Below are positions 24,095 to 45,306 of a stretch of 48,099 nucleotides of DNA, piece by piece. Origin of the DNA: Leptolyngbya sp. FACHB-261. GTDB taxonomy: Bacteria; Cyanobacteriota; Cyanobacteriia; FACHB-261. The stretch covers positions 1-48,099 of the forward strand of contig NZ_JACJPL010000033.1 of NCBI RefSeq assembly GCF_014696065.1. Direction: 5' to 3'. Below the pieces are notes generated by a model that saw nothing but the letters and a program-made list of their open reading frames with translations, did not search any database and had not been told where the DNA came from. Position 1 is the stretch's first letter, and every line of letters starts with the position of its first letter. Both the position numbers and the translations under genes were made by a program.

Positions 24095-26947
24095 ATGGCT
24101 GATCGTTTCCTTCCCACTCCAGGTGCTGTGGTTACTTGCCGCGATCGTCAATGGGTTGTACTACCCTCAGAAATTCATGAAGTCATCCGTTTACGCCCCT
24201 TGAGTGGGAACGAAGACCAAGTTTGCGGTATCTATCAACCTTTGGAGCTAGAGCCAATTACCTCAGCTCAGTTCCCCGTTCCTAAAGCAGACGCAATTCA
24301 AGACCATACCGCTGCTCAACTGCTCATGGATGCAGCTCGCTTGAGCCTACGGAGTGGGGCAGGTCCGTTTCGCTCGCTCGGTCGGTTATCAGTACGCCCG
24401 CGCCCGTACCAGCTTGTGCCACTGCTCATGGCACTGCGGTTAGAGACCATTCGGCTTCTGATTGCAGATGACGTGGGAATTGGCAAGACAATCGAAGCAG
24501 GGCTGATTGCCAGAGAAATGCTCGATCGTGGGGAAGTCAAACGGTTGGCTATTTTATGTCCTCCTCATCTGTGTGATCAATGGCAGCGAGAGTTGAGGGG
24601 AAAATTCCACATTGATGCGGTTGTGATTCGATCGGGCACCGTCAGCAAATTAGAGCGTGGTCTGCCTGGAGGGGATCACCACGTCTTTGGGTATTACCGC
24701 CACATTATTGTGAGCTTGGATTATGCGAAGTCAGACCGCCGTCGAGCTAGCTTCCTAGCTCACTGTCCAGATTTGGTGATTGTAGATGAAGCGCATACCT
24801 GTGCTCGTCCAGGGGGACGAAGTACCTCCCAGCAGCAGCGGCATCAATTACTTCAGGAACTAGCAGAGCGAGAGCAGCAGAATTTTATCCTTTTGACAGC
24901 GACTCCTCACAGCGGGATTGAAGAATCATTCCTCTCAATTATTGGTCTACTCAAAGGTAAGTTTGAGAGTTGGGACATTAATAACCTGACCCAGGAGCAA
25001 CGGATTGAGTTGGCCAACCATTTTGTGCAGCGCCGTCGTGCGGATGTGAAGCAATGGTTGGGAAACGAAACACCTTTCCCAGAGCGTGACCCTCTGGAAC
25101 AGCCCTATAAGTTATCCAAGGAATACCGGGATCTTTTTGAGGAGGTCTATAACTTTGCGCGTGGGTTGGTTAAAACGACCACAGAGGATATGAGCTATGC
25201 CCAGCGTCGAGGACGGTATTGGGCAGCCTTGGCACTAATTCGTTGTGTGATGTCATCACCTGAGGCTGCGATCGCAACACTCGGTAAACAGGTGAATAAG
25301 ACCGCAGCGGATGAAGGGCAAAGTGCGGAGATAGACATTGATGAAGACCTGATGGTTGCCTACACCTATGATCCAACTGATCAGGAGCAGGCGATTGATG
25401 CCCAACCCACAATCGCGATTGAGCAGGGGCAACGGTCTTACCAGGATTCCGATCGCCGTAAATTGCGGGGATTTATTCAGGCAGCGGCAAAGCTCAAAGG
25501 GGCAAAAGACACCAAGTTACAAGCAGCGATCGCCACCGTCACCGATCTCCTTACCAAAGGCTTCAATCCGATTATCTGGTGTCGCTACATTGCTACAGCT
25601 AACTACGTTGCTGAAGAATTGCGAAACAAATTTGAGAAGAAGCGGGGGAGTACAACCCGTGTGATCGCCATTACAGGCGAGCTATCCGAGGACGAGCGGG
25701 AAGTTCGGTTGGAGGAATTGACGCTCTATCCGCAGCGAATTTTGGTGGCAACGGACTGTCTCAGTGAAGGGGTGAACCTGCAAGAGTATTTCAATGCAGT
25801 GATTCATTATGACTTGCCCTGGAACCCGAACCGCCTGGAACAGCGAGAAGGTCGGATTGACCGTTACGGTCAGACGGCAACCGTGGTGAAAAGCTATCTG
25901 ATTTATGGGCAAGATAACCCCGTGGATGGAGCGGTGTTAGACGTGTTGATTCGGAAAGCTGTGGAAATCCATAAAACCCTTGGTATTAAGGTGCCTGTAC
26001 CAATGGATAGTGCCACGGTTTCAGAGGCAGTGTTCAAATCGCTCTTTGACCGGAAAGCTGATGCTCAGCAACTTTCCCTGCTGGATTTGCTGGACAACGA
26101 AGAATCTGCTGTCGAGCAAGTTCATAAAAGTTGGGATCGGGCGGTCGAGCGAGAGAAGGTTAGCCGGACTCGGTTTGCTCAACGGGCAATTAAGCCGGAT
26201 GAGGTTGAACAGGAGCTGGTGGAATCGGATCAGATTCTGGGCAATGAAGCCGATGTTGAGCGATTTGTGAAAGCTGCCTGTAGCCGCTTGAATGCGTCCT
26301 TACAGAAGAAAAAGCAATCCTGGCTACTGCCGTCGATCCCATTGCCCTTGCAACCCAGTCTGGGTACACAGCCCCGCACGATTACCTTCACGACACCTGC
26401 ACCGGAAGGGGTGGAATATGTCGGGCGCAACCATGCATTGGTAGAGGGTCTAGTCCGCTATTTATTGGAAGAGACCCTCGAAAATAACCGTGACCCCATC
26501 GCAGCTCGCTGTGGCTTTACGATTACCGATGCAGTTGAGCAACGCACCACACTGTTATTGCTGCGATCGCGCTATTTGCTGACCAGTCCAAAAGTTGAGT
26601 CTCTCCTGGCGGAGGAATGTTTTGTTGCTGGGTTTACGGGACCGCCCTCTAATCCCCTATGGTTGGAGCCTGAGGATGCCCAGAAGTTACTCCAACAAGC
26701 GGAACCCGTGGGGGATATTGCTCCCGCCTTAAAGCAACTAGAAATTGAAGATTTACTGAATAGTCTCGGTGATTTTGAAGAAGAACTAGATGCGATCGCC
26801 CAGATCAGGAGCCAGGGTCTGGTTCAGTCTCATCGACGAGTTCGCAGTGTGACTAAGGAAGGACAGGTCCGTGTGAAGCCTCAGTTGCCAATGGATATTC
26901 TGGGAATCTTTGTTCTCCAACCCGGTCAGCGGAGGAAAGTGGCATGA
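24095..26947 (+). CDS. drmD: DrmD-like SNF2-family helicase of a DISARM-related system
   Basis: The 950-residue protein starts with the small N-terminal domain typical of DrmD (RFLPTPGAVVTCRDRQWVVL ... LRPLSGNEDQVCGIYQPLE). SNF2 helicase motifs follow: ADDVGIGKT (124-132), DEAH (231-234), LLTATPHSG (267-274), LVATDCLSEGVNLQ and PNRLEQREGRIDRYGQ. In DISARM class 1, DrmD works with an adenine methyltransferase and the DrmAB complex to restrict unmodified DNA. The helicase is intact, its last 4 bp overlap the methyltransferase start (ATGA), and it contains four HIP1 octamers. Confidence 0.85.
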   Translation: MADRFLPTPGAVVTCRDRQWVVLPSEIHEVIRLRPLSGNEDQVCGIYQPLELEPITSAQFPVPKADAIQDHTAAQLLMDAARLSLRSGAGPFRSLGRLSVRPRPYQLVPLLMALRLETIRLLIADDVGIGKTIEAGLIAREMLDRGEVKRLAILCPPHLCDQWQRELRGKFHIDAVVIRSGTVSKLERGLPGGDHHVFGYYRHIIVSLDYAKSDRRRASFLAHCPDLVIVDEAHTCARPGGRSTSQQQRHQLLQELAEREQQNFILLTATPHSGIEESFLSIIGLLKGKFESWDINNLTQEQRIELANHFVQRRRADVKQWLGNETPFPERDPLEQPYKLSKEYRDLFEEVYNFARGLVKTTTEDMSYAQRRGRYWAALALIRCVMSSPEAAIATLGKQVNKTAADEGQSAEIDIDEDLMVAYTYDPTDQEQAIDAQPTIAIEQGQRSYQDSDRRKLRGFIQAAAKLKGAKDTKLQAAIATVTDLLTKGFNPIIWCRYIATANYVAEELRNKFEKKRGSTTRVIAITGELSEDEREVRLEELTLYPQRILVATDCLSEGVNLQEYFNAVIHYDLPWNPNRLEQREGRIDRYGQTATVVKSYLIYGQDNPVDGAVLDVLIRKAVEIHKTLGIKVPVPMDSATVSEAVFKSLFDRKADAQQLSLLDLLDNEESAVEQVHKSWDRAVEREKVSRTRFAQRAIKPDEVEQELVESDQILGNEADVERFVKAACSRLNASLQKKKQSWLLPSIPLPLQPSLGTQPRTITFTTPAPEGVEYVGRNHALVEGLVRYLLEETLENNRDPIAARCGFTITDAVEQRTTLLLLRSRYLLTSPKVESLLAEECFVAGFTGPPSNPLWLEPEDAQKLLQQAEPVGDIAPALKQLEIEDLLNSLGDFEEELDAIAQIRSQGLVQSHRRVRSVTKEGQVRVKPQLPMDILGIFVLQPGQRRKVA

Positions 26948-28011
26948 AGAATACGGTTGATATGCCAGTTGGGGTTGATATTCAAGGCAATTTGATCGCG
27001 CCGGACTTAACCACAGAGTTGGTGATTGGGGAGATTAAGGGTCAGGCACCGGAGGACTTCGGTCTTGCCAAAGGAGATAAGCTAGCAGATGAAATAGCGA
27101 CCGCCTGGGGGGATGCCAAAGCGTACTGGGCTGCATTCCAACGGGCTGTATCCCGATTATCGGAAGATGATCCGGCTACGACGGTGACACGGGAGCAGTG
27201 GGTGGTGCCGTTGCTCAGAAGTATGGGCTATGACCCGGTCTATGTGGCGAAGGCTGAAGTGGTGGAGGGGCAAACCTATGCAATCTCTCACCGAGCCGAA
27301 CCGGGGGAGAATAAGCCGCCTGTTCATATTATTGGCAGTCGAGTGCGACTGGAGCAGCGACCTCCCAGCGGCACACCCCGACTTTCTGCCCATGCCTTGG
27401 TGCAGGAGTACCTTAACCGCACGGAGCATCTCTGGTCGGTAGTGACGAACGGCTTGCGGTGGCGATTGCTGCGAGACTCGACGTTGATGACGCGGCTGAC
27501 TTACGTTGAGTTTGACCTGGAGCAGATCCTCAATGGAGAGAACTTTGCTGAGTTTGGCTTATTTTATCGACTGTTCCATCGTTCTCGGTTGCCGGAAAGC
27601 ATCGACGATGCGGATGAATGTCTGCTGGAGTTTTATCACCAGGAGTCGTTGCAGCAGGGTGGGCGGGTTCGCGATCGCCTCCGTGACGGTGTAGAATCTG
27701 CCCTCAAGCGACTGGGAACAGGATTCTTACAGCATCCTCAGAGTCAGAACCTGCGCGAGAAGTTGGAGGCTGGCACACTGACGGAGGTAGCGTATTACCG
27801 ACAGCTTTTGATGCTGATTTATCGTCTCCTGTTTTTGATGGTGGCGGAGTCGCGAAATCTGCTGCTTTCAACGGACGATCCAGAAAAGGCACGGATTTAT
27901 CGGGAGTACTACAGCATTGAGCGGTTGCGAGCGCTGGTAGAGCGACCAAGCTGGCGGCGAGAAGGCTTTCAAGGTTCCGCAGGGATGGAAAAGTCCGTGG
28001 ACGCTGAGTAG
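26944..28011 (+). CDS. Eco57I-type adenine methyltransferase (DrmMI-like), N-terminal fragment
   Basis: The first 355 codons of what was a protein of about 1,291 residues. It carries the N-terminal region before the catalytic domain (PVGVDIQGNLIAPDLTTELV; WSVVTNGLRWRLLRDSTLM; LLMLIYRLLFLMVAESRNLL). The frame breaks after RPSWRREGFQ, where a 71-bp insertion brings a TAG. Deleting one repeat copy plus the spacer joins it exactly to DLWQGLRVTFQ of the second half. ATG 26944 overlaps the DrmD stop by 4 bp. As read, this fragment has no catalytic motifs. Confidence 0.82.
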   Translation: MKNTVDMPVGVDIQGNLIAPDLTTELVIGEIKGQAPEDFGLAKGDKLADEIATAWGDAKAYWAAFQRAVSRLSEDDPATTVTREQWVVPLLRSMGYDPVYVAKAEVVEGQTYAISHRAEPGENKPPVHIIGSRVRLEQRPPSGTPRLSAHALVQEYLNRTEHLWSVVTNGLRWRLLRDSTLMTRLTYVEFDLEQILNGENFAEFGLFYRLFHRSRLPESIDDADECLLEFYHQESLQQGGRVRDRLRDGVESALKRLGTGFLQHPQSQNLREKLEAGTLTEVAYYRQLLMLIYRLLFLMVAESRNLLLSTDDPEKARIYREYYSIERLRALVERPSWRREGFQGSAGMEKSVDAE

Positions 28012-28044
28012 AGCGACCAAGCTGGCGGCGAGAAGGCTTTCAAG
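27937..28044 (+). repeat. 37-bp direct repeat that splits the methyltransferase
   Basis: The 37 bp at 27937-27973 recur exactly at 28008-28044, separated by 34 bp of unrelated sequence. The offset is 71 bp, not a multiple of three, so the duplication shifts the frame and adds a stop. Loss of 71 bp by recombination between the copies would restore the full reading frame (3,876 bp from 26944 to 30890). Confidence 0.92.
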
Positions 28045-28046
28045 AC

Positions 28047-30890
28047 TTGTGGCAGGGGTTACGGGTTACGTTTCAGCTCTTTGATGAGAACTGGCGGGGA
28101 CAGGTGTTGGGGCTATCGCCCTTAGATGGGGATTTGTTTGGCTCCCATACCTTAGTTGATCTGGAAGGGTGCGGCATCGACAACCATGACCTGATGTTGG
28201 CGTTGCGAGGATTGTCGCTCTATGAGCAGAAGGGGCAATTACGCCGAGTCAATTATGGGGCACTGGATGTTGAGGAGTTGGGAAGTGTTTACGAGAGTCT
28301 GCTGGAGTTTCACCCTAATGTGAGTCAGGTTGATGGGATTTGGGAATTCCAGTTGGTGACGGGGAGTGAGCGGAAGACGACGGGTTCTTACTATACGCCA
28401 CCGGAGTTAGTGGGGCAGTTGATTAAGAGTGCGTTGGAGCCAGTGATTGTGGATCGGCTGGCATCGTTGGGATCTGACGCAACAGTAGAGGCGCAAGAGC
28501 AAGCTCTGCTGAAGTTGAAAGTGTGCGATCCGGCTTGTGGATCAGGGCATTTCTTGCTGGCAGCAGCACGACGAATTGGTAAAGAGCTAGCACGGGTACG
28601 GACGGGAGAAATGCAACCAGGGGCGGAACCGTTGCGAGTAGCCATTCGCGATGTGATCCAGCATTGCATTTATGGGGTGGACTTGAATCCGCTAGCGGTA
28701 GACCTGTGTAAGGTAGCGCTTTGGCTGGAGGGGCTGTGTCGAGGTTTATCGCTGAACTTTCTAGATCACAGAATTAAGTGTGGCAACTCGTTGGTGGGGG
28801 TATTGGATCTGGATTGCTTAAAGGAGGGAATTCCAGACAATGCCTATAAACCTGTGACGGGGGATGACAAAGCCATTGCATCTCGTATCAAGAAAACGAA
28901 CAAGAAAGATCTAGAAGATATGCAGCGAGGGCAACTTGCCCTGGAGTTGGAGTCAACCTTTGAGAAAGACCGAGAGGAGTATGCCAGGGCATGGCGTGAA
29001 ATTGAGGTGATGAAGGATGATGACCCAACGGCAGTGCATCAAAAGCAGAAGAAGTATGAACGCAGTCGCCATTTAGTCTCGTGGCTACGGGATCGGTCTG
29101 CCTGTAACCTCTGGACAGCCGCGTTTTTCATGCCGCTGACAGAGCAGAATTTGCAGCTTTTGCCGACTTCGGGGGTGTTGGATAACCTGCTAAAGGGGAA
29201 CTGGGCGACGCAGGAGATTGTGGCGGCGGCGGATACGCTGGCAGATGAGAAGCATTTTTTCCATTGGCCCCTGGAGTTTCCGGATGTGTTTGAGCAGGGT
29301 GGATTTGATTGCGTATTAGGTAATCCACCGTGGGAGCGAATTAAGTTGCAAGAAAAAGAGTTTTTTGCAGCCAGAGATTTGCGAATCGTTCATGTGAAGA
29401 GTTCTACTGAAAGAAGCCGACTCATAGAAGATTTGAAAATTCAAAAACCAGAATTAGCTAAAGCATATGAGGACACAAAACATGATGCTGATGCTCAAGG
29501 AAAGTTTATTCGAGAGTCATCTCGATTTTCTCTAACGGCAGTAGGCGACATCAATACTTATTCAGTTTTCTCGGAGTTGGCTATTGGCTTAGTCGAATCT
29601 TTTGGTCGTGTCGGCATAGTTGTCCCACCTGGTATAGCTTCAGACATGACAACTAAAGAGTTTTTTAATTTCTTGATTAAGAAAAACAGACTTTGCTCTT
29701 TGGTCTCCTATGTAAATGAGAGGAGCTTATTTCAAGGCGTATTACATAACTTTAGGTTTTCTTTGATGTCAGTTGTTGGAGAAAAAATTGAAATACAAGA
29801 ACCTGATCTTGCGTTTGAATGTTTGAGTTTTGCTGAAGCGGAGAAACCTGAAAGGCATTTCACCTTAACGGAAGAAGAATTAAGGTTGTTGAATCCAAAT
29901 ACTCTCAATTGTCCTTTTTTTAGGACAGGAACGGATGCTGAGATAACAAAGAGAATTTATCAGGGTATTCCCATTATTCAAAATGAAGCCAAAGACGAAA
30001 ATCCTTGGGAAATCTCTTTTGCTAGGATATTCGATATGACGAATGATAGTCATCTCTTCAGTGTTGAACAAAAAGATGATTGTGTTCGTCTTTTAGAAGG
30101 CAAAATGATCTTTAGTTTTGATCATAGAGCAGCTAGCATAGGTATAAACGCTAAAAATATTCAACGCTCAGGTCAGCCTATAGAAACCACTTTAGAAGAT
30201 CATAAGGACCCATATTTTCTTACAAAACCTCAGCATTGGGTTAGTAGAAAGGAGGTGATGGCAAGACTGAGAGATCAAAAACAGGATTGGTTTATTGGTT
30301 TTCGTAGTGTTACCGGACCATCGAATGAGCGCACTTTTGTTTCTACTGTAATACCCTTTTGTGGCGCTGGTAACTCGTTACCTATCTTATTGAGTCAAAA
30401 ACAGGGAAAAGACTTATTACTATGCCTAATTTCTAATCTCAATGCGTTGGTTTTTGATTTCGTGGTGAAGCAGAAAATTGGTGGAGTCAATTTGAATTTT
30501 TTTATCGTTAAACAACTTCCTGTCATCCCACCCGATCGCTACACCCAAACCGACATCGACTTCATCGCCCCCCGCGTCCTCGAACTTACTTACACTGCCT
30601 GGGACTTGCAACCCTTCGCCCAAGACATGGGCTACGACGGCGAACCCTTCATCTGGAACCCAGAACGCCGCGCCCTGCTCCGTGCCGAACTCGATGCCTA
30701 CTATGCTCACCTCTACGGACTCACCCGCGACGAACTCCGCTACATCCTCAATCCCGCCGATGTCCACGGTCCCGACTTCCCCAGTGAAACTTTCCGCGTT
30801 CTAAAGAACAACGAGATAAAACTATTCGGCGAATACCGCACCCAACGCCTCGTCCTCGCCGCCTGGGATCAGTTATTCGGCAGCAGTTAA
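28047..30890 (+). CDS. Eco57I-type adenine methyltransferase (DrmMI-like), catalytic fragment
   Basis: The 947-codon second half holds the class-I methyltransferase core: TTGSYYTPPELV, motif I DPACGSGHFL (161-170), YGVDLNPLAVDLCKVALWLE, and motif IV NPPW near 425. A long C-terminal target-recognition region follows. These enzymes methylate N6 of adenine using S-adenosylmethionine. In DISARM class 1 this marks host DNA. The frame opens with TTG 28047 inside the coding sequence with no ribosome site, so separate translation is doubtful. Base composition is AT-richer over 29.35-30.5 kb (the recognition region), which suggests recombination there. Confidence 0.82.
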   Translation: MWQGLRVTFQLFDENWRGQVLGLSPLDGDLFGSHTLVDLEGCGIDNHDLMLALRGLSLYEQKGQLRRVNYGALDVEELGSVYESLLEFHPNVSQVDGIWEFQLVTGSERKTTGSYYTPPELVGQLIKSALEPVIVDRLASLGSDATVEAQEQALLKLKVCDPACGSGHFLLAAARRIGKELARVRTGEMQPGAEPLRVAIRDVIQHCIYGVDLNPLAVDLCKVALWLEGLCRGLSLNFLDHRIKCGNSLVGVLDLDCLKEGIPDNAYKPVTGDDKAIASRIKKTNKKDLEDMQRGQLALELESTFEKDREEYARAWREIEVMKDDDPTAVHQKQKKYERSRHLVSWLRDRSACNLWTAAFFMPLTEQNLQLLPTSGVLDNLLKGNWATQEIVAAADTLADEKHFFHWPLEFPDVFEQGGFDCVLGNPPWERIKLQEKEFFAARDLRIVHVKSSTERSRLIEDLKIQKPELAKAYEDTKHDADAQGKFIRESSRFSLTAVGDINTYSVFSELAIGLVESFGRVGIVVPPGIASDMTTKEFFNFLIKKNRLCSLVSYVNERSLFQGVLHNFRFSLMSVVGEKIEIQEPDLAFECLSFAEAEKPERHFTLTEEELRLLNPNTLNCPFFRTGTDAEITKRIYQGIPIIQNEAKDENPWEISFARIFDMTNDSHLFSVEQKDDCVRLLEGKMIFSFDHRAASIGINAKNIQRSGQPIETTLEDHKDPYFLTKPQHWVSRKEVMARLRDQKQDWFIGFRSVTGPSNERTFVSTVIPFCGAGNSLPILLSQKQGKDLLLCLISNLNALVFDFVVKQKIGGVNLNFFIVKQLPVIPPDRYTQTDIDFIAPRVLELTYTAWDLQPFAQDMGYDGEPFIWNPERRALLRAELDAYYAHLYGLTRDELRYILNPADVHGPDFPSETFRVLKNNEIKLFGEYRTQRLVLAAWDQLFGSS

Positions 30891-30953
30891 GCAAGGTTGT
30901 CTAATCATCCACAACCTTGTTTACACAGTCTTTGACTTCATACAGGAATATCA

Positions 30954-32219
30954 ATGTACAAACCCGGCGGCCCGATTATCGATGCCCTAACCCGCATTCA
31001 AAACAATCAATATGTGCTGCCAGCCATTCAACGCGAATTCGTCTGGCAACTCGAACAAATTGCAAAACTGTTCGATAGCTTGATGCAAGACTATCCAATT
31101 GGAACCTTCCTATTCTGGAATGTAGAGGCTGTAAATAGTCACAAGTTCAAGTTTTATGGCTTTGTCCGCGATTATCACAAAAGGGATAATCCCCATTGCC
31201 CTGATTTAGGGCTGCTCCCCAACCAAAACCTAACTGCCATTCTAGACGGACAGCAAAGGCTCACTGCCCTTAACATTGGGCTTCGGGGTTCAATGTCGAT
31301 GAAGGTTCCCTACAAGTGGTGGAGTAGCCCTGATGCATTTCCGAAATGCTTTCTCTACCTCGACCTACTCGCTAAAGGTGATGCTGAGTACGAAGACTTC
31401 AAATACCGATTCAAATTTCTTGAACCATCCAAAGCCAAGGACACCAGTGACGAAATCTGGTTTAAGGTTTCTGATGTCTTGAACCTCAAAGCTGGCCCTT
31501 CCATGCTGAAGTGGATTACAGATAGACACCCGAACTTGGATAACGATCGACTTAACTTGGCATTTGAAGTTTTAGCAAAACTCCACGAGACTGTACACAT
31601 TAAGCCCCTTGTTCACTATTACGAAGAAACCAGCCAGGATATTGAGAAAGTTCTAAATATATTCATTCGCCTTAATAGCGGTGGAACGGTCTTATCCTAT
31701 TCAGACCTTTTGCTGAGTGTTGCTGTTGCCCAATGGTCGAAACCGGATGCACGACAGGAAATCCATAACCTAGTCGATGAAATTAATGGCATTCGTGATG
31801 GCTTTAGCTTCTCGAAAGATTTTGTACTAAAAGCAGGCTTGATGTTGGCAGACATCAGTAGCGTAGGATTCAAAGTTGAGAATTTCAATCATGAGAATAT
31901 GCAAACGCTGGAGTCACTCTGGCCCAAGATTCGCACTGCTATTGTATTGGCAGTTCATCTAATAGCCGACTTCGGTTTGAACTGGCAAACTTTACGAGCA
32001 GACAGTGCCGTATTACCGATCGCCTATTACCTTTACCACAAGAATTTTTCAGATAACTACCGCTCCCATAATTCCTATGATGGCGATCGAACGTTGATCA
32101 AAGGATGGTTATTCCGTTCATTGCTAAAACCATCCGGCATTTGGGGTAGTGGTCTAGATACCTTGCTCACTGCCCTAAGAAGTGTCATCAAAGACTCAAC
32201 TGACCCAGGATTCCTATAG
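30954..32219 (+). CDS. DUF262 (GmrSD/ParB-like) protein, frameshifted before its HNH domain
   Basis: The 421-residue frame has the DUF262 signature: YVLPAIQREFVWQLEQI (20-36), ILDGQQRLTAL (96-106, the ParB-like catalytic DGQQR), and IFIRLNSGGTVLSYSDL. DUF262 proteins with a C-terminal HNH (DUF1524-type) domain act as nucleotide-dependent endonucleases against modified or foreign DNA. Here a frameshift near 32205-32219 separates the HNH part, which follows in another frame. ATG 30954 has AGGAAT upstream. It sits where drmA would be in canonical DISARM class 1. Confidence 0.82.
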   Translation: MYKPGGPIIDALTRIQNNQYVLPAIQREFVWQLEQIAKLFDSLMQDYPIGTFLFWNVEAVNSHKFKFYGFVRDYHKRDNPHCPDLGLLPNQNLTAILDGQQRLTALNIGLRGSMSMKVPYKWWSSPDAFPKCFLYLDLLAKGDAEYEDFKYRFKFLEPSKAKDTSDEIWFKVSDVLNLKAGPSMLKWITDRHPNLDNDRLNLAFEVLAKLHETVHIKPLVHYYEETSQDIEKVLNIFIRLNSGGTVLSYSDLLLSVAVAQWSKPDARQEIHNLVDEINGIRDGFSFSKDFVLKAGLMLADISSVGFKVENFNHENMQTLESLWPKIRTAIVLAVHLIADFGLNWQTLRADSAVLPIAYYLYHKNFSDNYRSHNSYDGDRTLIKGWLFRSLLKPSGIWGSGLDTLLTALRSVIKDSTDPGFL

Positions 32220-32236
32220 ACGCTCTCAACCAGTCC

Positions 32237-32587
32237 ATGCGGCAACGGGGTAAGTCGCTTACCTTTGAGCCAGAAGAGATCGAAGAACTGGTCTCGATGA
32301 ACTATGGAGACAAGAGAGTTTTTCTATTGCTCTCTTTGCTCTATCCCTTTGTAGATCTGAGAAACCAATTTCACATCGATCACGTTTTTCCTCGATCGCA
32401 ATTCAAACCAGCTCAGCTCAAGAAAGATGGATTTGATGACAATGGTGTAGAACTGCTTCGGGAACTCCGAGGTAAACTGCCCAATCTTCAACTGTTAGAA
32501 GGTAAGGAAAATATTCAGAAACAGGCTACACTTCCGGTGCAGTGGTTGAGAGATAGATACCCTGGAAGTAATGGAAAATGCAACTAA
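32237..32587 (+). pseudogene. HNH-nuclease tail of the DUF262 protein, twice frameshifted
   Basis: This frame is open from 32204 (IDALNQSMRQRGKSLTFEPE) and carries the HNH-type motif NQFHIDHVFPRSQF, then LPNLQLLEGKENIQKQATLP. It leaves frame again near 32570. The natural end (NDYCDRHDLGQLSEELKNFQ ... RIINLINKT, stop) lies in a third frame up to 32711. Restoring two single-base shifts gives one protein of about 585 residues from 30954 to 32711. The nuclease activity is probably lost. Confidence 0.72.
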
Positions 32588-32751
32588 TGACTACTGCGAT
32601 CGTCATGATTTAGGACAATTGTCAGAGGAGTTGAAAAATTTCCAGCAGTTCTACGACAAGAGACAAACCACCTTAAAGTCCCGAATCATAAACCTCATTA
32701 ACAAAACCTGATTTGGCGATCGCTCTGAATTTTTATCAGCTTGAGAATGCA

Positions 32752-34860
32752 ATGACTATTTGGGCACTTTCATTTACCAACACTTTCTTTAGCGAGCTGC
32801 TGAACCTCCCTCAAGCAGTTCAAAAGAAGATTAGCAAAACGCTAAAGGTGCTCGAGACCGATCCGATTTCTGCCCAGGGTGATGCCAAAAAGCTGAAAGG
32901 CTACACCAACAACGTCTACCGAGTTCGCATTGGTGACTACCGCCTGTTCTATAGTTTTGGACAGGGGTGGGTAAAACTGCTCAGCGTTCGTAAGCGAGAC
33001 GAGCGAACCTACGAAATTGAGCTACCCGAAGTAGATGCTCCTCTCCCACCTCCAAAAGAAAGCATTCTTGAACCCCAATACCAAGAGACTCCAGCGGCAG
33101 GGGTGACCGCATCCCAACCCATATCCCTGGCTGAACCAAGTCCTTCTACCGAGAATTCGTCGTCGATTACTACTGCATTGCCAGTCAAACTGACAGACGC
33201 ACTGCTCAAGCAATGGAAAATCCCATCTGAACATTGGCCCGGAATTTTAGCCGCCCCCCACTCTGAAGCACTGCTAGAGCTGCCAATTCCCGATCACTAT
33301 CTCCAGCGCATCATTGATAACCTCTATCCTCGCCCCATTGAGGAGATTATTACTGAGCGTGAGTATGTATTGAAACAGCCAGAGGATCTCGATCGCTTTG
33401 TTGAAGGGAGCCTCACAACATTTCTGCTCAAACTTGATCCAGAACAGGAAAAGCTCAAAGCCTTTGGTAAGCAAGGCCCCATTCTGGTGAAAGGTGGACC
33501 AGGTACTGGAAAATCAACGTTAGCGATCTACCGAGTGCAAGGCCTTCTAGAGCAAGGTTTTAAGCCTGTGCTCTTTACGACCTACACAAAAGCTCTGGTC
33601 ACCTATTCCGAGCAATTGTTATCTCAACTTATTGGGCAATCGCTTGATCAATCGGGAGTAAAAGTCGCAACCGTTGATTCCTTAACTTTTCACTACTACG
33701 TCCAGACCTACGGCAAGCCGATGTTTGCGCGAGATGATCAGTGCCTTGCCCTGCTAGACGTTGCCCTGCAAACAGCCGAAATACCGGCAAAAAATGGTTT
33801 CGATCGCCAGGGTCGCCGTCAGTTCCTAGAAAGGCTTGGACTGCCCTACCTACTTCAGGAAATCCAAGATGTGATTGAAGCCTGGGGAATCACCAGCCTG
33901 GAAGAATACCTGGCTTTAGACCGCCGAGGCAGAGGAACACCCCTCCAGGCAAAATTGCGAGAAGCCCTGTGGAGCATTTACCAAACCTGGCAACACCTCA
34001 TGGAACGGGACGGGTATATCACCTGGTCTCAGCTTCGCTGCAAAGCACTGGAAGTGGTACAGCAACTAGCAGAATCGCCCTACCAAGCCGTTGTAATTGA
34101 TGAAGCCCAAGACTTATCACCCGTTTCTCTCCGATTTCTCCTGGCATTAGTGCCCTCCCTCGAAGGGGTTTACCTCACCGCTGATGCCTCACAGTCCCTA
34201 TACCAGCGTGGTTTTAGCTGGAGGCAAATTCACGCCGACCTGAAGGTGACTGGACGAACGTTGCTGCTAAGGAGGAATTATCGGAATACTGAGCAAATCA
34301 TAACGGCTTGTGCCACGATTTTAGAGGGGACACCTGCCGGGGATACTGAATGTTTGGCTCAAGAGCCGTCTGCCTACCAGGGAGAACTTCCAACCATCAT
34401 CCTGACCGATAGCGTTGAGCAGGAAAGCCGGTTGATCCATTCGTTCTTCATCGAAGCTGCCAAACATTGCCGCTTGCCGCTGCATGGAGGGGCAGTGCTT
34501 TGTCCAAGTATCGCAATGGGGAAAGCGATCGCGCAACGTTTGGTGAAACAGGGGGCAGAAGCACAATTCGTTGCAGGCAATGATATCGATCTAAATGCGA
34601 CGTATATCAAGGTCATGACACTCCACTCTGCCAAAGGCTTGGAATTTCCGTTTGTGGCAGTAGTGGGACTGCGTGAGGGAATACTTCCATATATCAGTGC
34701 AGATCTGCCGGAAGACGAAATGAAGCCTGTTTTAGACGAACAGCGTCGCCTATTCTATGTGGGATGTTCACGAGCTATGCGAGCACTGATTGTCAGCGGT
34801 TCGCGCTCCAGTCCTTCATCGTTTTTAGACGGTCTCTCTGATCCTTATTGGAAAAAGTAG
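32752..34860 (+). CDS. RelE/ParE-like domain fused to a UvrD/Rep superfamily 1 helicase
   Basis: The protein, read from ATG 32752 (an upstream TTG at 32713 adds 13 residues), has about 702 residues. Residues 1-95 match the RelE/ParE toxin fold (LLNLPQAVQKKISKTLKVLE, VYRVRIGDYRLFYSF). A Pro-rich linker follows, then UvrD helicase motifs: KGGPGTGKST (about 247-256), VVIDEAQDLSP (about 446), RRNYRNTEQI, VMTLHSAKGLEFP (about 621) and RRLFYVGCSRAMRAL. Motor functions look intact. The toxin-like part could be an mRNA interferase or a DNA- or ribosome-contact module. It sits between the DUF262 gene and the DUF1998 helicase, same strand. Confidence 0.85.
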   Translation: MTIWALSFTNTFFSELLNLPQAVQKKISKTLKVLETDPISAQGDAKKLKGYTNNVYRVRIGDYRLFYSFGQGWVKLLSVRKRDERTYEIELPEVDAPLPPPKESILEPQYQETPAAGVTASQPISLAEPSPSTENSSSITTALPVKLTDALLKQWKIPSEHWPGILAAPHSEALLELPIPDHYLQRIIDNLYPRPIEEIITEREYVLKQPEDLDRFVEGSLTTFLLKLDPEQEKLKAFGKQGPILVKGGPGTGKSTLAIYRVQGLLEQGFKPVLFTTYTKALVTYSEQLLSQLIGQSLDQSGVKVATVDSLTFHYYVQTYGKPMFARDDQCLALLDVALQTAEIPAKNGFDRQGRRQFLERLGLPYLLQEIQDVIEAWGITSLEEYLALDRRGRGTPLQAKLREALWSIYQTWQHLMERDGYITWSQLRCKALEVVQQLAESPYQAVVIDEAQDLSPVSLRFLLALVPSLEGVYLTADASQSLYQRGFSWRQIHADLKVTGRTLLLRRNYRNTEQIITACATILEGTPAGDTECLAQEPSAYQGELPTIILTDSVEQESRLIHSFFIEAAKHCRLPLHGGAVLCPSIAMGKAIAQRLVKQGAEAQFVAGNDIDLNATYIKVMTLHSAKGLEFPFVAVVGLREGILPYISADLPEDEMKPVLDEQRRLFYVGCSRAMRALIVSGSRSSPSSFLDGLSDPYWKK

Positions 34861-34869
34861 GAAGGTTCT

Positions 34870-37800
34870 ATGAAGGTCCCCGTTCGGTTACACGAGCTGC
34901 TCCAGCAAAGCAATGAAGCTATGAAGCCGTTCTTGATGCTGATTGGGCAGGGCAGTGCCGAGATAGATTGCACTGGAGTAGAATCGCTGGAACCCGAACA
35001 GTTAGACCTTCTCTTTTCTTATGCCCCAGACAATTGGGATATTGCAGACCTCTGGCCCATCATTAATGTCGATACCCTATCCGACAACCTAGCTGCTCAG
35101 TTAGAGCAATGGATTAACCAACGTCGAGGCAGAATACTCGTCCAAGACTTATCTGCAAATCAGCCAGCCGAAACAAGCGATTGCCCCACTCTGGATATTT
35201 TCAATCTTCGCGATGAGGTGATCGGGGATTACCGGAAATACATCGAGAGTTTTCTGAAAATCCGCGACCAGCGAGTGAAAGATTTTGTCGATCGAGAGCT
35301 AGAACGGGGAGAGCTGTGGCCAGACCCGTTGGTGCAGCTTAATCCGTCCTATCGACAAGGAGCTAATATCCCTACCCTTATGAGCGAGGGAATATTGCAT
35401 CCATCCTGCGATCGCTATTTCCCAGACTATGTTTCTAAATACAGCTTTCGGTTACATCAAGAGCAAGCGTTTCGGATCGCGCAGCGCCAAGAACCTTATG
35501 TTCTAACCACTGGAACCGGCTCTGGGAAGAGCATGACGTATGTTATACCCATTTTTGATGACCTGCTGAGAAATCCAGGTGTTAAGGGAGTCCGGGCGAT
35601 TTTGGTCTACCCCATGAATGCCTTAATTAACTCCCAAAAAGAAGAATTCGATAAATTCTTAAGCCAGGTTCCAGGTACGCATATCCGCGTTGAGAAGTAC
35701 ACCGGGCAAGAAAACCTAGCAAAGAAAACAGAGATTCAGAACAACCCACCCCAGATTATTCTGACCAACTACATAATGCTGGAGCTAATGCTCAGCCGTA
35801 ATCAGGAGGAGAAACTAGTTGCATCCCCTGACCTGAAATTCCTGATTCTTGATGAACTGCACACCTACCGGGGTCGTCAGGGTGCAGATGTGGCAATTCT
35901 GATTCGTAAACTGCGACAGCGCTGTGGACAGAAACTGTTGTGCATTGGCACCAGCGCCACGATGTCCACGGAAGGAGCGCGATCGAATCGAAATCAAACC
36001 GTTGCAGCTGTTGCCAGTAAACTCTTTGGCATTGAGGTTAAAGCAGAGAATGTTGTTTATGAAACGTTAGAACGGACGATTCAGCGTCCCGATCCGACAG
36101 TGGATGAACTACGGGAGGCGATCGCCGTAGGACTACCCCCAGAAGAAGAACAAACTTTAGCAGCATTCCGATCGCACCCTCTAGCTGCCTGGATGGAGAT
36201 GGCCTTTGGACTTCAGGAAGAAGAAGGGCACCTAGTTCGACGAACACCCATTTCGCTAGCCACTGGCGCAGCCAAACTCGCTGCAGAAACTCAGACCGAT
36301 GAAGGAGCCTGTCTTGAACTGCTACGGGGGATGTTTTTCTGGGGGAGTAAGACGAAGGGGCTTGCTTTCCGGTTACACCAATTCATTTCCCAAGGGGGAA
36401 GCGTGTATGCCACGACTGAGAAACGGGGCGATCGCTTACTGACCCTCGAAGGGCAATACTCAACAACTGAGGATCGACTGCTCTATCCCCTCGTATTTTG
36501 CCGGGAGTGTGGTCAAGACTATTACCTTGTTCATTACGATCGCGACCAGAACGAAGTAAAGCCACTCCTACCCACGGCCCTGAGTGCTAGCTTGGAAGAC
36601 TCCAATATTCGAGAGGGATACATCACTCTAGATGAACCAGGATTATGGGATGAGAGTGAAGAAGACCGCCTTCCAGATACCTGGTTCAATGAAACAAAGC
36701 GTCAGGGAAGAGTTCCCAAGAAGGAATACGCTGACTTTATTCCTCAGCGGTTGCGGGTGCTGCCGAGTGGTCGAGTCGTTTCATCTCTTTTCGAGGGTAC
36801 GTCTTACTGGTTTACCCCTAAGCCATTCCTGACCTGCTTGAACTGCGGGGTCGTTCACGACAAGAAGAAAAACGAATTTACGAAACTTTCGCGCCTAAGT
36901 AGCGAAGGCAGAAGTACCGCAACAACATTGCTTTGTCTTTCAACTGTGAATCGATTGAAGACGAGCGGAGCAATATCACCACAGGCTCAAAAAATTCTGA
37001 GTTTCACCGATAACCGTCAGGATGCCTCACTCCAGGCAGGCCATTTTAACGACTTCGTGCAAACGAGTTTATTGCGAGCTTCCTTGAACGGTGCGATGCA
37101 AGCTAAGCAAAAACTAACCCATACAGAGTTAGCCCAAGCGGTGGTTGAGCAGATGGGCCTATCTCAGGCAGATTATGCCAAACAGGTTGCAGACTATGGT
37201 CCTGGTAAGCGTCGGAACGAAGAGGCATTTCGCAATCTCATTGAATATCGGCTCTATGAAGATTTGCGAAAAGGCTGGCGGATTGTTCAGCCGAACTTAG
37301 AGCAGTGTGGACTCTTGGGAATTGAATATGAGGGACTTGAAGAAGTCTGTAGAGCAACAGAATTTTGGCAGAAGCACGGGCACCCAATTTTGCTTCAAGC
37401 CAGCTCGGAACAACGCTACGAAGTAGTTCGAGCTGTGCTTGACCAGCTTCGTAAGGATTTAGTGCTGGATGCAGAACTGCTGCAACCACAACGAGTTGAT
37501 CAGCTTAAAAAAGAAGTGCGTCAAGCAATTAAAGATCCGTGGTGTTTTGATGAGTATGAACGTCTCAACGAAGCGCGATGGGCCTCAATCTCAACAGCAA
37601 AGGCAGGTAGAGATGTCATTAAGCTCACAGCACGCAGCAAAATTGGTAAATTTTTGCGCTCTGCCCAAACTTGGACGTGGCGTAACCAAAATATCTCTGA
37701 GGCAGATTATGACGGCTTGATCAAAACTCTCATAGCAGCACTGGCAGACACTGGCTATCTTCTCCAGGAGGGGCAAGATGTCCAAATTCGGATTGATGCG

Positions 37801-40209
37801 ATGATTTGGAGGGCACAGCAAGCCAGCCATATCAAGCCAGACCCGATGACCTCAAAACGATTGCAGGGGACTGAAGATGTGCAGTTAGAGGTCAACCAGT
37901 TTTTCCAGGAGTTCTATGGCAGAAGTGGCCCAAATGTTCACAATATGGAAGGGCGTGAGCATACGGGGCAAGTGAAAAATGAAGATCGACAAAAAAGAGA
38001 AACCCAGTTCAGAAATGGAGAACTTTCAACCCTTTTCTGCTCTCCCACGATGGAGCTTGGAATTGACATCTCAGATCTGAATGTCGTTCACATGCGAAAT
38101 GTACCGCCCAGTCCGGCTAATTACGCCCAACGGAGTGGGCGAGCTGGACGAAGTGGACAGGAGGCATTAGTCATTACCTACGCCTCAGTTGGGAGTGGAC
38201 ATGATCAATACTTCTTCAGGCGACCGGAGCAAATGGTTGCTGGTGTGGTTGTACCGCCTAAGTTAGAGCTAGGAAACCAGGATCTGATCAAATCGCATAT
38301 TCACTCTCTATGGTTGGCTCATACAGGTCTTTACCTTGAGAGTTCAATGAATCAGATCCTCGATCTGGAGGGTAATGGCTACCCACTCAAAGAGATGATC
38401 CGCAACCAGCTCACTTTATCCTCTGATACTTTGGATCGCTGCTTTCAAGCAACAAAGGTCATTTTAGAGGATGCATTCTGTACGGCTGATTTACGACGGG
38501 CGACTTGGTATACAGAAGACTTTCTCCGGCAAGTCATCGAGGATGCACTGACAAGCTTTGATCGAGCCTGCGATCGGTGGCGCAAACTTTACCGCGATGC
38601 AGTCACACAGCTTGAAGCATCCCGGCAAACGATTGATAAAGCCACACGAGGTTTGACGTCTCAGGAAGAGCGAAATAATGCTGAAGCCCAAGAACGGGAA
38701 GCAAAACGACAAATTGACTTATTGGTGGGGCAGACGAATCAAGGCAAGAATCAGTCGCAGTTGGAATTTTACCCTTATCGCTACTTTGCCTCCGAAGGTT
38801 TTCTACCTGGCTATAACTTTCCTCGATTACCAGTACGGGCATACATCCAGGCAGGGGAAGATGGAGAATTTGTTTCCCGACCACGAGTAGTGGCGATTCG
38901 CGAATTTGCACCTCGAAACATTCTCTACTATGAAGGAAGTAAATTTCAAATCTCGAAGACCCGTATTCCTGTAAAGGGTATTGAAAGCGGGTATCAGCGG
39001 GTCGCACTCTGCCCGCAGTGTGGATATTTCCATACAGGGGATGATTGGCAGAGAGACCTATGTGAAAACTGTAATATCAAGATTGCACCGGATAGCTATG
39101 GCAATCCTGCAAAACTCAATCGAGTATTGAGTATGGAGACGATGCTCACTCGACGACGTGAACGAATCACTTGTGATGAGGAAGAACGGCTTAAGTACGG
39201 CTATAACGTCACAACCCACTTCCGCTTTGAACAGCAAAAACGAGAGTTAGCCGTTGTTACTGCCGAAGATGGCACGAAGCTACTGGAGATCACCTATGGC
39301 GATACAGCAAATATTTGGCGGGTTAACCGAGGCTTAAGGAGTAGTCAGGAGAGAGGATTCAAAGTCGATCGTGCAACGGGAACTTGGGGAGATACCAAGA
39401 GTGAGGAGAACCCCGATACGTTGCAAACAGAAGTGCATCTAATGGTTGAGGATGTTTGCAACGTACTTCTCATCAAACCCTTCAACATTCCGATACAGCA
39501 TTCAGATAAGTTCCTGGCTAGTTTCCAATATGCGATGGAAAGAGCTATTCAGGCTGTATATAAACTCGAAGAGAACGAACTCGCATCTGAACGGCTGGGA
39601 CAGGGGCAATATCTTCTATTCTGGGAAGCTTCCGAGGGCGGTGCTGGTGTTCTCTCACAAATACTAGAAAATCCAGCAGCATTCCAAGCATTAGCGAAAG
39701 AAGCTTTAGATATCTGCCACTTTGTTCATGAAAAAGAGAGCTGCACCAAGGCTTGTTATGAATGTCTCCTCTCCTATCGCAATCAATTTGACCATCCACT
39801 ACTCGATCGCCATGCAATCCGTGGATACCTTGATCAACTTACAAAAAGCACAATAAGCCGCCATGTTCAAGGAATGTCCCGTGAGGAACAATACCAGCAA
39901 TTACGAGCACAGACAGATCCAAACTCAGCCTTTGAACGAGAATTTCTCGATGAACTGTACAACCAAGGCATAAAGTTGCCAGACTCAGCCCAAGAACTGA
40001 TCCCAGAGGCTAATGTAAAGCCTGACTTCCTGTACCGAGATGCCAAAGTAGCAATTTTCTGTGACGGTTCAGTTCATGACCATCCTGAACAACAGGAGCA
40101 GGATCGCATTGCCAGGGAGAACCTCAAATATTCTGCTGGATACTACGTTCTTACCTTCCGCTACAACGAAGATTGGAGGGCAAAGTTAAGTGTGTTGAAC
40201 TCCTTTTAA
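34870..40209 (+). CDS. Giant DEAD/DEAH helicase with DUF1998 domain and C-terminal nuclease-like segment
   Basis: The 1779-residue protein has Walker A TTGTGSGKSMTYVIP (about 214-222), LVYPMNALINSQ, DELHTYRG (about 327), KILSFTDNRQDASLQAGHFN, and the C-lobe TMELGIDISDLNVVHMRNVP ... QRSGRAGRSGQ (about 1087). Cys pairs lie near 543, 653 and 1380. DUF1998 ends with the Cys cluster CTKACYECLLSYRNQFDH (about 1624). The last 110 residues (FEREFLDELY ... KPDFLYRDAKVAIFCDGSVH) look like a PD-(D/E)XK/Vsr-type nuclease. It resembles a fused DrmA+DrmB, or DruE of Druantia, with a nuclease replacing DrmC. GAAGG precedes the ATG. Intact. Confidence 0.82.
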   Translation: MKVPVRLHELLQQSNEAMKPFLMLIGQGSAEIDCTGVESLEPEQLDLLFSYAPDNWDIADLWPIINVDTLSDNLAAQLEQWINQRRGRILVQDLSANQPAETSDCPTLDIFNLRDEVIGDYRKYIESFLKIRDQRVKDFVDRELERGELWPDPLVQLNPSYRQGANIPTLMSEGILHPSCDRYFPDYVSKYSFRLHQEQAFRIAQRQEPYVLTTGTGSGKSMTYVIPIFDDLLRNPGVKGVRAILVYPMNALINSQKEEFDKFLSQVPGTHIRVEKYTGQENLAKKTEIQNNPPQIILTNYIMLELMLSRNQEEKLVASPDLKFLILDELHTYRGRQGADVAILIRKLRQRCGQKLLCIGTSATMSTEGARSNRNQTVAAVASKLFGIEVKAENVVYETLERTIQRPDPTVDELREAIAVGLPPEEEQTLAAFRSHPLAAWMEMAFGLQEEEGHLVRRTPISLATGAAKLAAETQTDEGACLELLRGMFFWGSKTKGLAFRLHQFISQGGSVYATTEKRGDRLLTLEGQYSTTEDRLLYPLVFCRECGQDYYLVHYDRDQNEVKPLLPTALSASLEDSNIREGYITLDEPGLWDESEEDRLPDTWFNETKRQGRVPKKEYADFIPQRLRVLPSGRVVSSLFEGTSYWFTPKPFLTCLNCGVVHDKKKNEFTKLSRLSSEGRSTATTLLCLSTVNRLKTSGAISPQAQKILSFTDNRQDASLQAGHFNDFVQTSLLRASLNGAMQAKQKLTHTELAQAVVEQMGLSQADYAKQVADYGPGKRRNEEAFRNLIEYRLYEDLRKGWRIVQPNLEQCGLLGIEYEGLEEVCRATEFWQKHGHPILLQASSEQRYEVVRAVLDQLRKDLVLDAELLQPQRVDQLKKEVRQAIKDPWCFDEYERLNEARWASISTAKAGRDVIKLTARSKIGKFLRSAQTWTWRNQNISEADYDGLIKTLIAALADTGYLLQEGQDVQIRIDAMIWRAQQASHIKPDPMTSKRLQGTEDVQLEVNQFFQEFYGRSGPNVHNMEGREHTGQVKNEDRQKRETQFRNGELSTLFCSPTMELGIDISDLNVVHMRNVPPSPANYAQRSGRAGRSGQEALVITYASVGSGHDQYFFRRPEQMVAGVVVPPKLELGNQDLIKSHIHSLWLAHTGLYLESSMNQILDLEGNGYPLKEMIRNQLTLSSDTLDRCFQATKVILEDAFCTADLRRATWYTEDFLRQVIEDALTSFDRACDRWRKLYRDAVTQLEASRQTIDKATRGLTSQEERNNAEAQEREAKRQIDLLVGQTNQGKNQSQLEFYPYRYFASEGFLPGYNFPRLPVRAYIQAGEDGEFVSRPRVVAIREFAPRNILYYEGSKFQISKTRIPVKGIESGYQRVALCPQCGYFHTGDDWQRDLCENCNIKIAPDSYGNPAKLNRVLSMETMLTRRRERITCDEEERLKYGYNVTTHFRFEQQKRELAVVTAEDGTKLLEITYGDTANIWRVNRGLRSSQERGFKVDRATGTWGDTKSEENPDTLQTEVHLMVEDVCNVLLIKPFNIPIQHSDKFLASFQYAMERAIQAVYKLEENELASERLGQGQYLLFWEASEGGAGVLSQILENPAAFQALAKEALDICHFVHEKESCTKACYECLLSYRNQFDHPLLDRHAIRGYLDQLTKSTISRHVQGMSREEQYQQLRAQTDPNSAFEREFLDELYNQGIKLPDSAQELIPEANVKPDFLYRDAKVAIFCDGSVHDHPEQQEQDRIARENLKYSAGYYVLTFRYNEDWRAKLSVLNSF

Positions 40210-43468: not shown

Positions 43469-43753
43469 CTATGCGATGGACGTTGGCCAGGGGTCAGGTT
43501 CAAACATCTCTAACAGCGGCTGGGTAACGGACATTTTGATGTCGATCTCACGCCACTGATAACTGATGTAGTTGGGATACTGGCTCTGTAGCCAGGTCTT
43601 GATGGCCTCAGTAGTCCAGTCAATGCCAGCCTCGATCAGAATGTTGAACGGTGGAATTTGCTTGTTCTTGTGGGCAACGCGGCAGGCCCAGAGCTTGTGA
43701 GGTGCGCGGCCATCAACAGACTCTCTAGCAGGTTGATCTGCTTGTGCAATCAT
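43469..43753 (-). CDS. Small hypothetical protein
   Basis: A 94-residue soluble protein (HKLWACRVAHKNKQIPPFNI; WTTEAIKTWLQSQYPNYISY) with mixed strand and helix and no known motif. AGAGGAG lies 8 nt before ATG 43753, a strong ribosome site. It is divergent from the HTH gene at 43874, across a region with palindromes. Function unknown. Confidence 0.62.
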   Translation of the reverse strand: MIAQADQPARESVDGRAPHKLWACRVAHKNKQIPPFNILIEAGIDWTTEAIKTWLQSQYPNYISYQWREIDIKMSVTQPLLEMFEPDPWPTSIA

Positions 43754-43811: not shown

Positions 43812-43840
43812 CTATCATTTACATCTCCATGCTAGCATTG

Positions 43841-43857
43841 TTTGTGCACAATGTGCA
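43841..43857. promoter_or_regulatory. 17-bp element, upstream copy
   Basis: TTTGTGCACAATGTGCA lies 16 bp before the HTH gene's ATG. Its exact inverse complement occurs just after the same gene at 44253-44269. Each copy carries GTGCAC half-sites, consistent with an operator for the HTH protein. Confidence 0.65.
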
Positions 43858-43873
43858 CTAGAAGGAATTCTAA

Positions 43874-44230
43874 ATGCTTGCACAAAGGGAAGTTAGAGCC
43901 GAACACTTAGAACTGGTGGTCCGGTATATCAAGTCAGTCCCGCCGCCCCCTCGAATGGAACCGAGCGAATTCATGGCACGGTGGGCTATCACCCAAGAGC
44001 AACTGGCAGACCTCTTAGGTGTTTCTAGAAGCGCAGTTGCTCATTGGTTCAGTGCCCTGGACAGCAAGCATAAGCGCAACCCACCGGAATCCGTAAAGAG
44101 GCAGTTAGCGGAGATCAATGCTCTCTGGAGCCTCTATGAGAACGAGCCAGAGCATCTGAGGCAAGCTTGGGAAGCAAGAAGGCTTAGGATTCTGAAGGCA
44201 TCATCTCCACCTCCTGATGGTCCGTCTTGA
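43874..44230 (+). CDS. Small XRE-like transcriptional regulator
   Basis: A 118-residue protein with a central helix-turn-helix (MARWAITQEQLADLLGVSRS then AVAHWFS) and a helical C-terminus (INALWSLYENEPEHLRQAWE) that may dimerise. AAGGA lies 8 nt before ATG 43874. The gene is bracketed by exact inverted copies of a 17-bp element and followed by a terminator, so it forms a self-contained, probably autoregulated unit. Confidence 0.78.
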   Translation: MLAQREVRAEHLELVVRYIKSVPPPPRMEPSEFMARWAITQEQLADLLGVSRSAVAHWFSALDSKHKRNPPESVKRQLAEINALWSLYENEPEHLRQAWEARRLRILKASSPPPDGPS

Positions 44231-44252
44231 CTTCAAATTCGTAAATTCTCAT

Positions 44253-44269
44253 TGCACATTGTGCACAAA
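44253..44269. promoter_or_regulatory. 17-bp element, downstream inverted copy
   Basis: TGCACATTGTGCACAAA is the exact reverse complement of 43841-43857. It lies 22 bp after the stop of the HTH gene and just before the terminator. Confidence 0.65.
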
Positions 44270-44275
44270 TTTCTT

Positions 44276-44300
44276 GCCCTTCAGCCATGAAGGGCTTTTT
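44276..44300 (+). terminator. Rho-independent terminator after the XRE-like gene
   Basis: GCCCTTCA (44276-44283) and TGAAGGGC (44288-44295) form an 8-bp stem with a 4-nt loop, followed by TTTTT. Confidence 0.85.
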
Positions 44301-44432: not shown

Positions 44433-44765
44433 ATGAGGAGTGCACACGTTCAAGGCGAAATTCTACATACACCTAGAACTCTGGCTAAGCAGCTCGGAAT
44501 TACTGAACGAAGCCTGAACCGTCTCGTCCGCCAGCTCCGTCTCTCCCGACCACCGCGAGGTGGGCATCTAAGCGCCACCGCTCAATGCATCTTGCAGGAA
44601 TACTGGGAAGCCGTGCATGAGCTGCGGTTACTGAATAAGGACAAGTACATCACTGAGGTCCTTGGCAGAAAGGACGGGCTGAACCTTTATGTCCAGCGTG
44701 TGTATCGCATGACCCTCGAAGAGTACAAGCAAACAATTAAAGGCAAAACTCATGAGCACCCCTAA
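44433..44765 (+). CDS. Small helix-turn-helix protein
   Basis: A 110-residue basic protein. The N-terminal half is a helix-turn-helix (PRTLAKQLGITERSLNRLVR, then QLRLSRPPRGGHLSA); the C-terminal half is helical (LEEYKQTIKGKTHEHP end). There is no strong ribosome site before ATG 44433. It overlaps the next gene by 14 bp and heads a run of closely packed plasmid genes, so it may regulate them. Confidence 0.6.
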   Translation: MRSAHVQGEILHTPRTLAKQLGITERSLNRLVRQLRLSRPPRGGHLSATAQCILQEYWEAVHELRLLNKDKYITEVLGRKDGLNLYVQRVYRMTLEEYKQTIKGKTHEHP

Positions 44766-45306
44766 CGAGTTAGCACATGAACTTGACATTGATGCAAGCG
44801 AGATCCACACCCTTCTGACCCGACTGAGAATGCCCATTTCTGAAGAACTGACTCCAGAACAGGAGGACTTAATTCGTATGGCGAAGGTGGATGCAGACGA
44901 ACGAGGCGTTAGCCTTCTTGACGTCGTGCCAGAAATTAACCCACCCGAAGCTCAATCCTCTGATTCTGCTCCTGCCAGCAACAGCAGTAACTCGTTTCTG
45001 ACTCTGGAGCAAAGCGCCTCTGCATCTGTCCATGCAGCATCGGGAGCGAGCGATGCCCTAGCTCAATCTTTTGCTGATGAATTTTGGGCAGATGTTTGGA
45101 CCAAAACCCATGGCCTGATCCGCAGTCCCCAAAGTGTTGAACTGCCCCGCGCTTCCGCTGCTTTCCAGCAGATGGTTGAAAGCATTCGGGGGGAGTTACA
45201 GACGGGGGTGACGCTGCTGGGAGGCTACCACTTGCAGGGCATGCAGGCAGCTCAGGCCTTGAAGAGGTCATCGATGCAGCCGTTACCCGAGTCTGGACAG
45301 GCCTAA
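44752..45306 (+). CDS. Hypothetical protein heading the membrane-protein cluster
   Basis: A 184-residue protein. The first 45 residues resemble a small HTH-like helical bundle (NELAHELDIDASEIHTLLTR). A Ser/Ala-rich linker follows, then a helical region (DEFWADVWTKTHGLIRSPQS; MVESIRGELQTGVTLLGGYH). AAAGG lies 8 nt before the ATG. The coding sequence may really shift frame near 45258 and continue as LEEVIDAAVTRVWTGLKSRA into the hydrophobic frame at 45342. If so, the TAA at 45306 is not the natural end. Confidence 0.55.
   Translation: MSTPNELAHELDIDASEIHTLLTRLRMPISEELTPEQEDLIRMAKVDADERGVSLLDVVPEINPPEAQSSDSAPASNSSNSFLTLEQSASASVHAASGASDALAQSFADEFWADVWTKTHGLIRSPQSVELPRASAAFQQMVESIRGELQTGVTLLGGYHLQGMQAAQALKRSSMQPLPESGQA

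Follow-up and report, generated by a model that had tools for sequence, protein, structure and literature searches.

Results

The window analyzed here is the whole stretch of 48,099 bp, which constitutes one entire contig (G000:C33). It carries ParA and ParB genes, which makes the replicon plasmid-like; the contig ends, compared for circularity, had no terminal overlap, and searches of plasmid collections with the genes neighboring the locus described below returned neither a match nor a related plasmid backbone. Its relatives are cyanobacterial. On its forward strand, positions 43874 to 44230 encode a 118-aa HTH protein (HTH_3/Xre-like; Pfam PF01381). The 17-mer TTTGTGCACAATGTGCA at 43841 to 43857 ends 16 nt ahead of the ATG (43874), and its exact reverse complement at 44253 to 44269 begins 22 nt past the stop codon, which ends at 44230. 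The 17-nt arms are 100% complementary and form by far the strongest inverted pair within 1.2 kb. The initial annotation had described just such a 17-bp pair in opposite orientation, at 16 and 22 bp from the gene, and both the inverted-pair search and the sequence bear it out. The terminator that it placed after the gene is also real: a terminator scan and folding located a separate intrinsic terminator on the forward strand at 44276 to 44295, GCCCTTCA-GCCA-TGAAGGGC, with a stem of 8 and then TTTTT.

Upstream of the gene, the operator-like palindrome GTGCACAATGTGCAC (43844 to 43858) overlaps the 17-mer and has counterparts at the equivalent position in homologues. The operator-like 3' element (44253 to 44269) includes the palindrome TGCACATTGTGCA (44253 to 44265), and homologues have a palindrome at the same place. 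A candidate -10 hexamer, TAGCAT (43833 to 43838, forward strand), picked out by its sequence and by the -10-like TATNAT of homologues, would place the transcription start inside the 5' palindrome; a scan with an E. coli-type promoter consensus found no promoter. The ribosome-binding-site-like sequence AGAAGGAA follows at 43860 to 43867 on the same strand. On the reverse strand, an ORF of 94 aa (43469 to 43753) is divergent to the HTH gene, and a search with it found no homologues. The 5' site precedes its start by about 91 bp, and this ORF may share the 5' operator. Both divergent genes start with ATGnTTGCACAA (43742 to 43753 and 43874 to 43885, a 92% inverted repeat), and these repeats supply an additional TTGCAC half-site at each start codon. 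Just downstream of the HTH unit, two overlapping small ORFs (44433 to 44765 and 44752 to 45306) have similar putative HTH N-termini and a weak AbiEi-like match. Elsewhere in the window, positions 24095 to 40209 form a defense island with a DpdE/DrmD-like helicase, two ORFs matching separate parts of DrmMI, an HEC-05 candidate in two frames (30954 to 32219 and 32237 to 32587), a GajB-like UvrD helicase, and a DruE-like helicase of 1,779 aa.

The 118-aa protein matches PF01381 over residues 39 to 61 with 24.9 bits, against a cut-off of 23, and its recognition helix is predicted at about residues 52 to 63 (SRSAVAHWFS). Profile searches gave HTH_3-type matches and none to MerR or ribbon-helix-helix families. 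No relative with a solved structure was found by sequence, and a search for viral relatives that would deepen the alignment was also negative. An AlphaFold model made without an alignment reached a pLDDT of 58, too poor for a fold search.

The pair of sites is well beyond chance expectation. In 2,000 dinucleotide shuffles, the longest word common to both 100-nt flanks averaged 7.0 nt and never exceeded 12 nt, and shuffles of the whole window gave 0.22 matches to the 17-mer even at up to three mismatches. Taken singly, both copies are near-perfect palindromes (5' copy, 7-bp arms, P = 0.007; 3' copy, 6-bp arms, P = 0.027), so that the inverted orientation of the pair is nearly uninformative. The informative feature is that one palindromic site occurs twice around an HTH gene. 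At up to one mismatch, the 6.9-Mb genome contains no copy of the 17-mer besides these two; therefore, for a protein that reads the 17-mer, the gene encoding it would be practically the sole target. Relaxing the search to two mismatches added nine genomic sites, versus two for a reversed control pattern. A regulon elsewhere in the genome was considered and rejected, since all eight of the sites fetched fall within ORFs 100 or more codons long.

Among genomes of the host's class, 22 of 116 and 52 of 388 contained homologues of the HTH protein, which also occur on a few cyanobacterial plasmids. Matches in gut and soil Clostridia, Bacilli, and Collinsella, mostly confined to the short HTH stretch, were set aside. 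Clustering of 102 gene records at 75% identity left a nonredundant family of 66 members. Perfect palindromes with arms of at least 6 nt within 60 nt past the stop codon follow 28 of these 66 genes, versus 15 of 149 other ORFs at the same loci (Fisher's exact test, P = 1.6e-7). Beyond the window, 24 cyanobacterial loci have one kind of site on both sides of a homologous gene, ahead of the ATG and again past the stop codon, either TTGYCA-N3-TGRCAA upstream and TTGYCA-N2/N3-TGRCAA downstream or TTGTCA-N3-GTGCA on either side in direct orientation; these 24 include many close relatives of one another, and the listing pattern was itself derived from these sequences once they had been inspected. The independent evidence therefore comes from the flank comparison just given and from shuffle tests of similarity between upstream and downstream flanks. 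In the latter, only 4 of 19 loci reached P = 0.05 without gaps, partly because group b (defined below) combines N3 sites upstream with N2 sites downstream; the window, L164, L076, and L173 were individually significant at the floor of the test (P = 0.01).

The sequence of the site varies among relatives. It is TTGYCA-TGRCAA in group b, TGTCA-N3-TGACA in group c, and CCCGCAC-GTGCGGG, CTATCACCGTGATAG, or CCTATCAAATGATAGG in group d, while the window site, TGCACA-N1-TGTGCA, is distinct from the common TTGYCA class. The closest relatives of the window gene (L076, L077, L089, and L173 to L175; about 45 to 48% identical) all have TTGTCA-N3-GTGCA upstream, and all but L077 repeat it downstream in direct orientation, with a second palindromic site slightly beyond. 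Their GTGCA half is also present in the window site, which thus resembles a symmetrical form of this operator. These comparisons indicate that the gene-bracketing layout is conserved while the sequence of the site drifts. Relatives that keep the layout with other site sequences suggest that the sites are most likely binding sites of the regulator itself, not the ends of a cassette. The comparison thus lends good support to the "pair of operators" offered in the initial annotation.

The other possibility raised there was that the 17-bp sites delimit a tiny mobile cassette. Exact 17-bp inverted repeats that enclose a single gene would be expected of such a small element, mobile or invertible, carrying the regulator. 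However, a target-site duplication was looked for at the outer edges and is absent, neither a second copy nor a solo end exists in the genome at up to one mismatch, viral contigs contain no exact 17-mer, and no recombinase gene adjoins the unit. Moreover, the sites are directly oriented, not inverted, in the nearest relatives, and the closest chromosomal relatives share one gene order, the HTH gene with an 82-aa gene. The missing duplication, the missing copies, and the conserved synteny led us to reject this explanation, which we regard as highly improbable.

Loci L146 to L170 (group b), together with L177 and L178, have HTH homologues with paired TTGYCA operator-like sites. Of the 26 group b genes, 23 have a cas12k gene or fragment as their divergent neighbor immediately upstream, and NCBIfam model NF038191 confirmed Cas12k in all four loci tested (L158, L159, L177, and L178). 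In both loci inspected, the end of cas12k has tRNA genes no more than about 1.5 kb away, CRISPR-like 45-nt repeats adjoin cas12k in L178, and three genomes (G117, G196, and G210) have Mu-transpos_C (TnsB-type) matches 12 to 15 kb away on the same contig. No Cas12k was found in the window or the rest of the host genome. The TTGYCA-N3-TGRCAA-type upstream sites, present in 18 group b loci, directly follow a -10-like TATNAT, and mostly N2 versions occur past the stop codon. In L154, L158, and L161, AGTACATAAGATCT or AGTACACAAGTTCT boxes, which resemble the cyanobacterial LexA box, stand about 40 to 75 nt ahead of the HTH start, before the regulator promoter; similar boxes, AGTTC-N4-GTACT, are found both upstream and downstream of other group b genes.

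The two-sided arrangement was found at genes that seemingly have their own promoter. In contrast, many members of the operon-type groups c and d have the 3' site with no 5' partner site within the locus, which suggests a function of its own for the 3' site. The host's own paralogue, L103 (G000:C16:86500-89900), shares the order of the window, i.e., stop codon, palindrome CCTTGCACCGTGCAAGG, and terminator. It is located in an operon behind a gene for a 158-aa protein with the motif GERVHWHSVSTQDYGTVVG..WENDLE, and this two-gene unit recurs in many relatives of groups c and d.

The retention of the 3' palindrome alone in groups c and d would also be compatible with an RNA element, i.e., a terminator hairpin or a 3'-end stabilizer, in which case the 5' copy alone would be an operator and the identity of the two a coincidence of descent or duplication. 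The 3' palindromes of L146, L154, L156, and L103, with loops of 3 to 4 nt and a T-rich tail, point the same way, and in several cas12k-linked members a palindrome followed by T-rich sequence could double as the terminator. In the window, however, a separate strong terminator follows the palindrome. A simple terminator scan lists the palindrome as a weak five-pair candidate, it folds weakly as RNA by itself (-4.6 kcal/mol; z = -0.5 in context), and it is followed by CAAATTTCTT and lacks a GC-rich stem with an immediate T run. A T run is also missing from most palindromes of groups c and d, an Rfam search yielded no credible RNA element, and the 3' site is identical to the 5' site at 17 of 17 positions. 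In group b, the half-sites TTGTCA and TTGCCA are freely mixed, and the combination TTGCCA..TGACAA makes up 3 of the 18 downstream N2 sites and 4 of the 15 upstream N3 sites. In RNA, a stem formed by this combination would contain a C-A mismatch, so the pattern is more in keeping with a dimer that reads two independent half-sites in DNA than with an RNA hairpin. We therefore consider a purely RNA-level role for the 3' palindrome unlikely.

Discussion

Our analysis places one palindromic sequence on both sides of a gene for an HTH_3-type protein and nowhere else in the genome at up to one mismatch. The interpretation we favor, and consider probable, is that the gene at 43874 to 44230 encodes a small local autorepressor whose dimer binds the identical palindromes on either side of its coding gene; binding, repression, and the role of the 3' site are inferred from sequence comparisons. 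A dimer at the 5' palindrome, over the predicted transcription start, would shut off the regulator's own promoter and might also act on the divergent 94-aa gene. The 3' palindrome, between the stop codon and the terminator, would be a second operator of the same protein. It would most likely boost autorepression, either through a higher local concentration of repressor or through cooperative contact with the 5' site, or protein bound there would act as an obstacle in front of the terminator. The 3' site may also work alone, as suggested by the members of groups c and d with no detected 5' partner.

Small Xre/HTH_3 autorepressors (PF01381) are the closest point of reference for this arrangement. 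The window protein resembles them in an HTH domain that scores above the gathering cut-off and in a palindrome that overlaps the promoter predicted for its gene. Its family differs in the second copy of the operator past the stop codon, which is conserved across the family. A literature search on 3' operators yielded nothing closely similar.

DNA looping across the gene, which the initial annotation also raised, would be a special case of this autorepression, in which the two operators might act chiefly by closing a loop of about 408 bp. Repressors of the lac and gal type use a main operator with auxiliary operators and DNA looping. The window is comparable in having an operator-like site at the predicted promoter and a distant identical one, but its putative auxiliary site is located between the stop codon and the terminator, and helical phase between the sites is not conserved in its family. 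Two identical sites flanking the gene, and a range of spacing conserved among homologues, would favor a loop. Yet in the window and its homologues, centers of paired sites are 348 to 408 bp apart, equivalent to 33.1 to 38.9 helical turns with no common phase. The phase spans about a full turn among close relatives (33.4 to 34.5 turns in most group b loci, with the window at 38.9), the 118-aa protein lacks a recognizable tetramerization domain, and the 5' partner is undetected in many relatives. We thus regard looping as a rather unlikely main mode of action, if slightly less so than a purely RNA-level 3' element.

The cas12k-linked branch extends these considerations to CRISPR-associated transposons. 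A survey of 118 type V-K systems found regulators in 86 and named MerR, Arc_1, and Arc_2 only, with no mention of Xre in its text (PMC9938897); the HTH family may therefore represent a further regulator type. The group b genes occupy the same divergent position beside cas12k as CvkR, Arc_1, and Arc_2, and they have an inverted-repeat site at the putative promoter, as does CvkR, whose binding site at promoters is an inverted repeat of 15 nt (PMC9938897). They differ in the HTH family, which is neither MerR nor ribbon-helix-helix, and the window gene differs further in not being located beside cas12k. Thus, group b may be an undescribed type of HTH regulator in these transposons. Our broadest proposal, which we advance tentatively and hold with less confidence than autorepression in the window itself, is that a widespread cyanobacterial HTH family, including a fourth type of type V-K regulator, acts through gene-bracketing operators, the 3' one being placed between stop codon and terminator.

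If true, these predictions would describe a compact design for autoregulation in a place, the 3' flank, that is seldom inspected for such operators. The own flanks of an uncharacterized regulator family would then offer a simple route to predict its binding site. The cas12k-linked branch would further supply regulator candidates for RNA-guided transposons, a class in which the natural control is assigned in only part of the systems.
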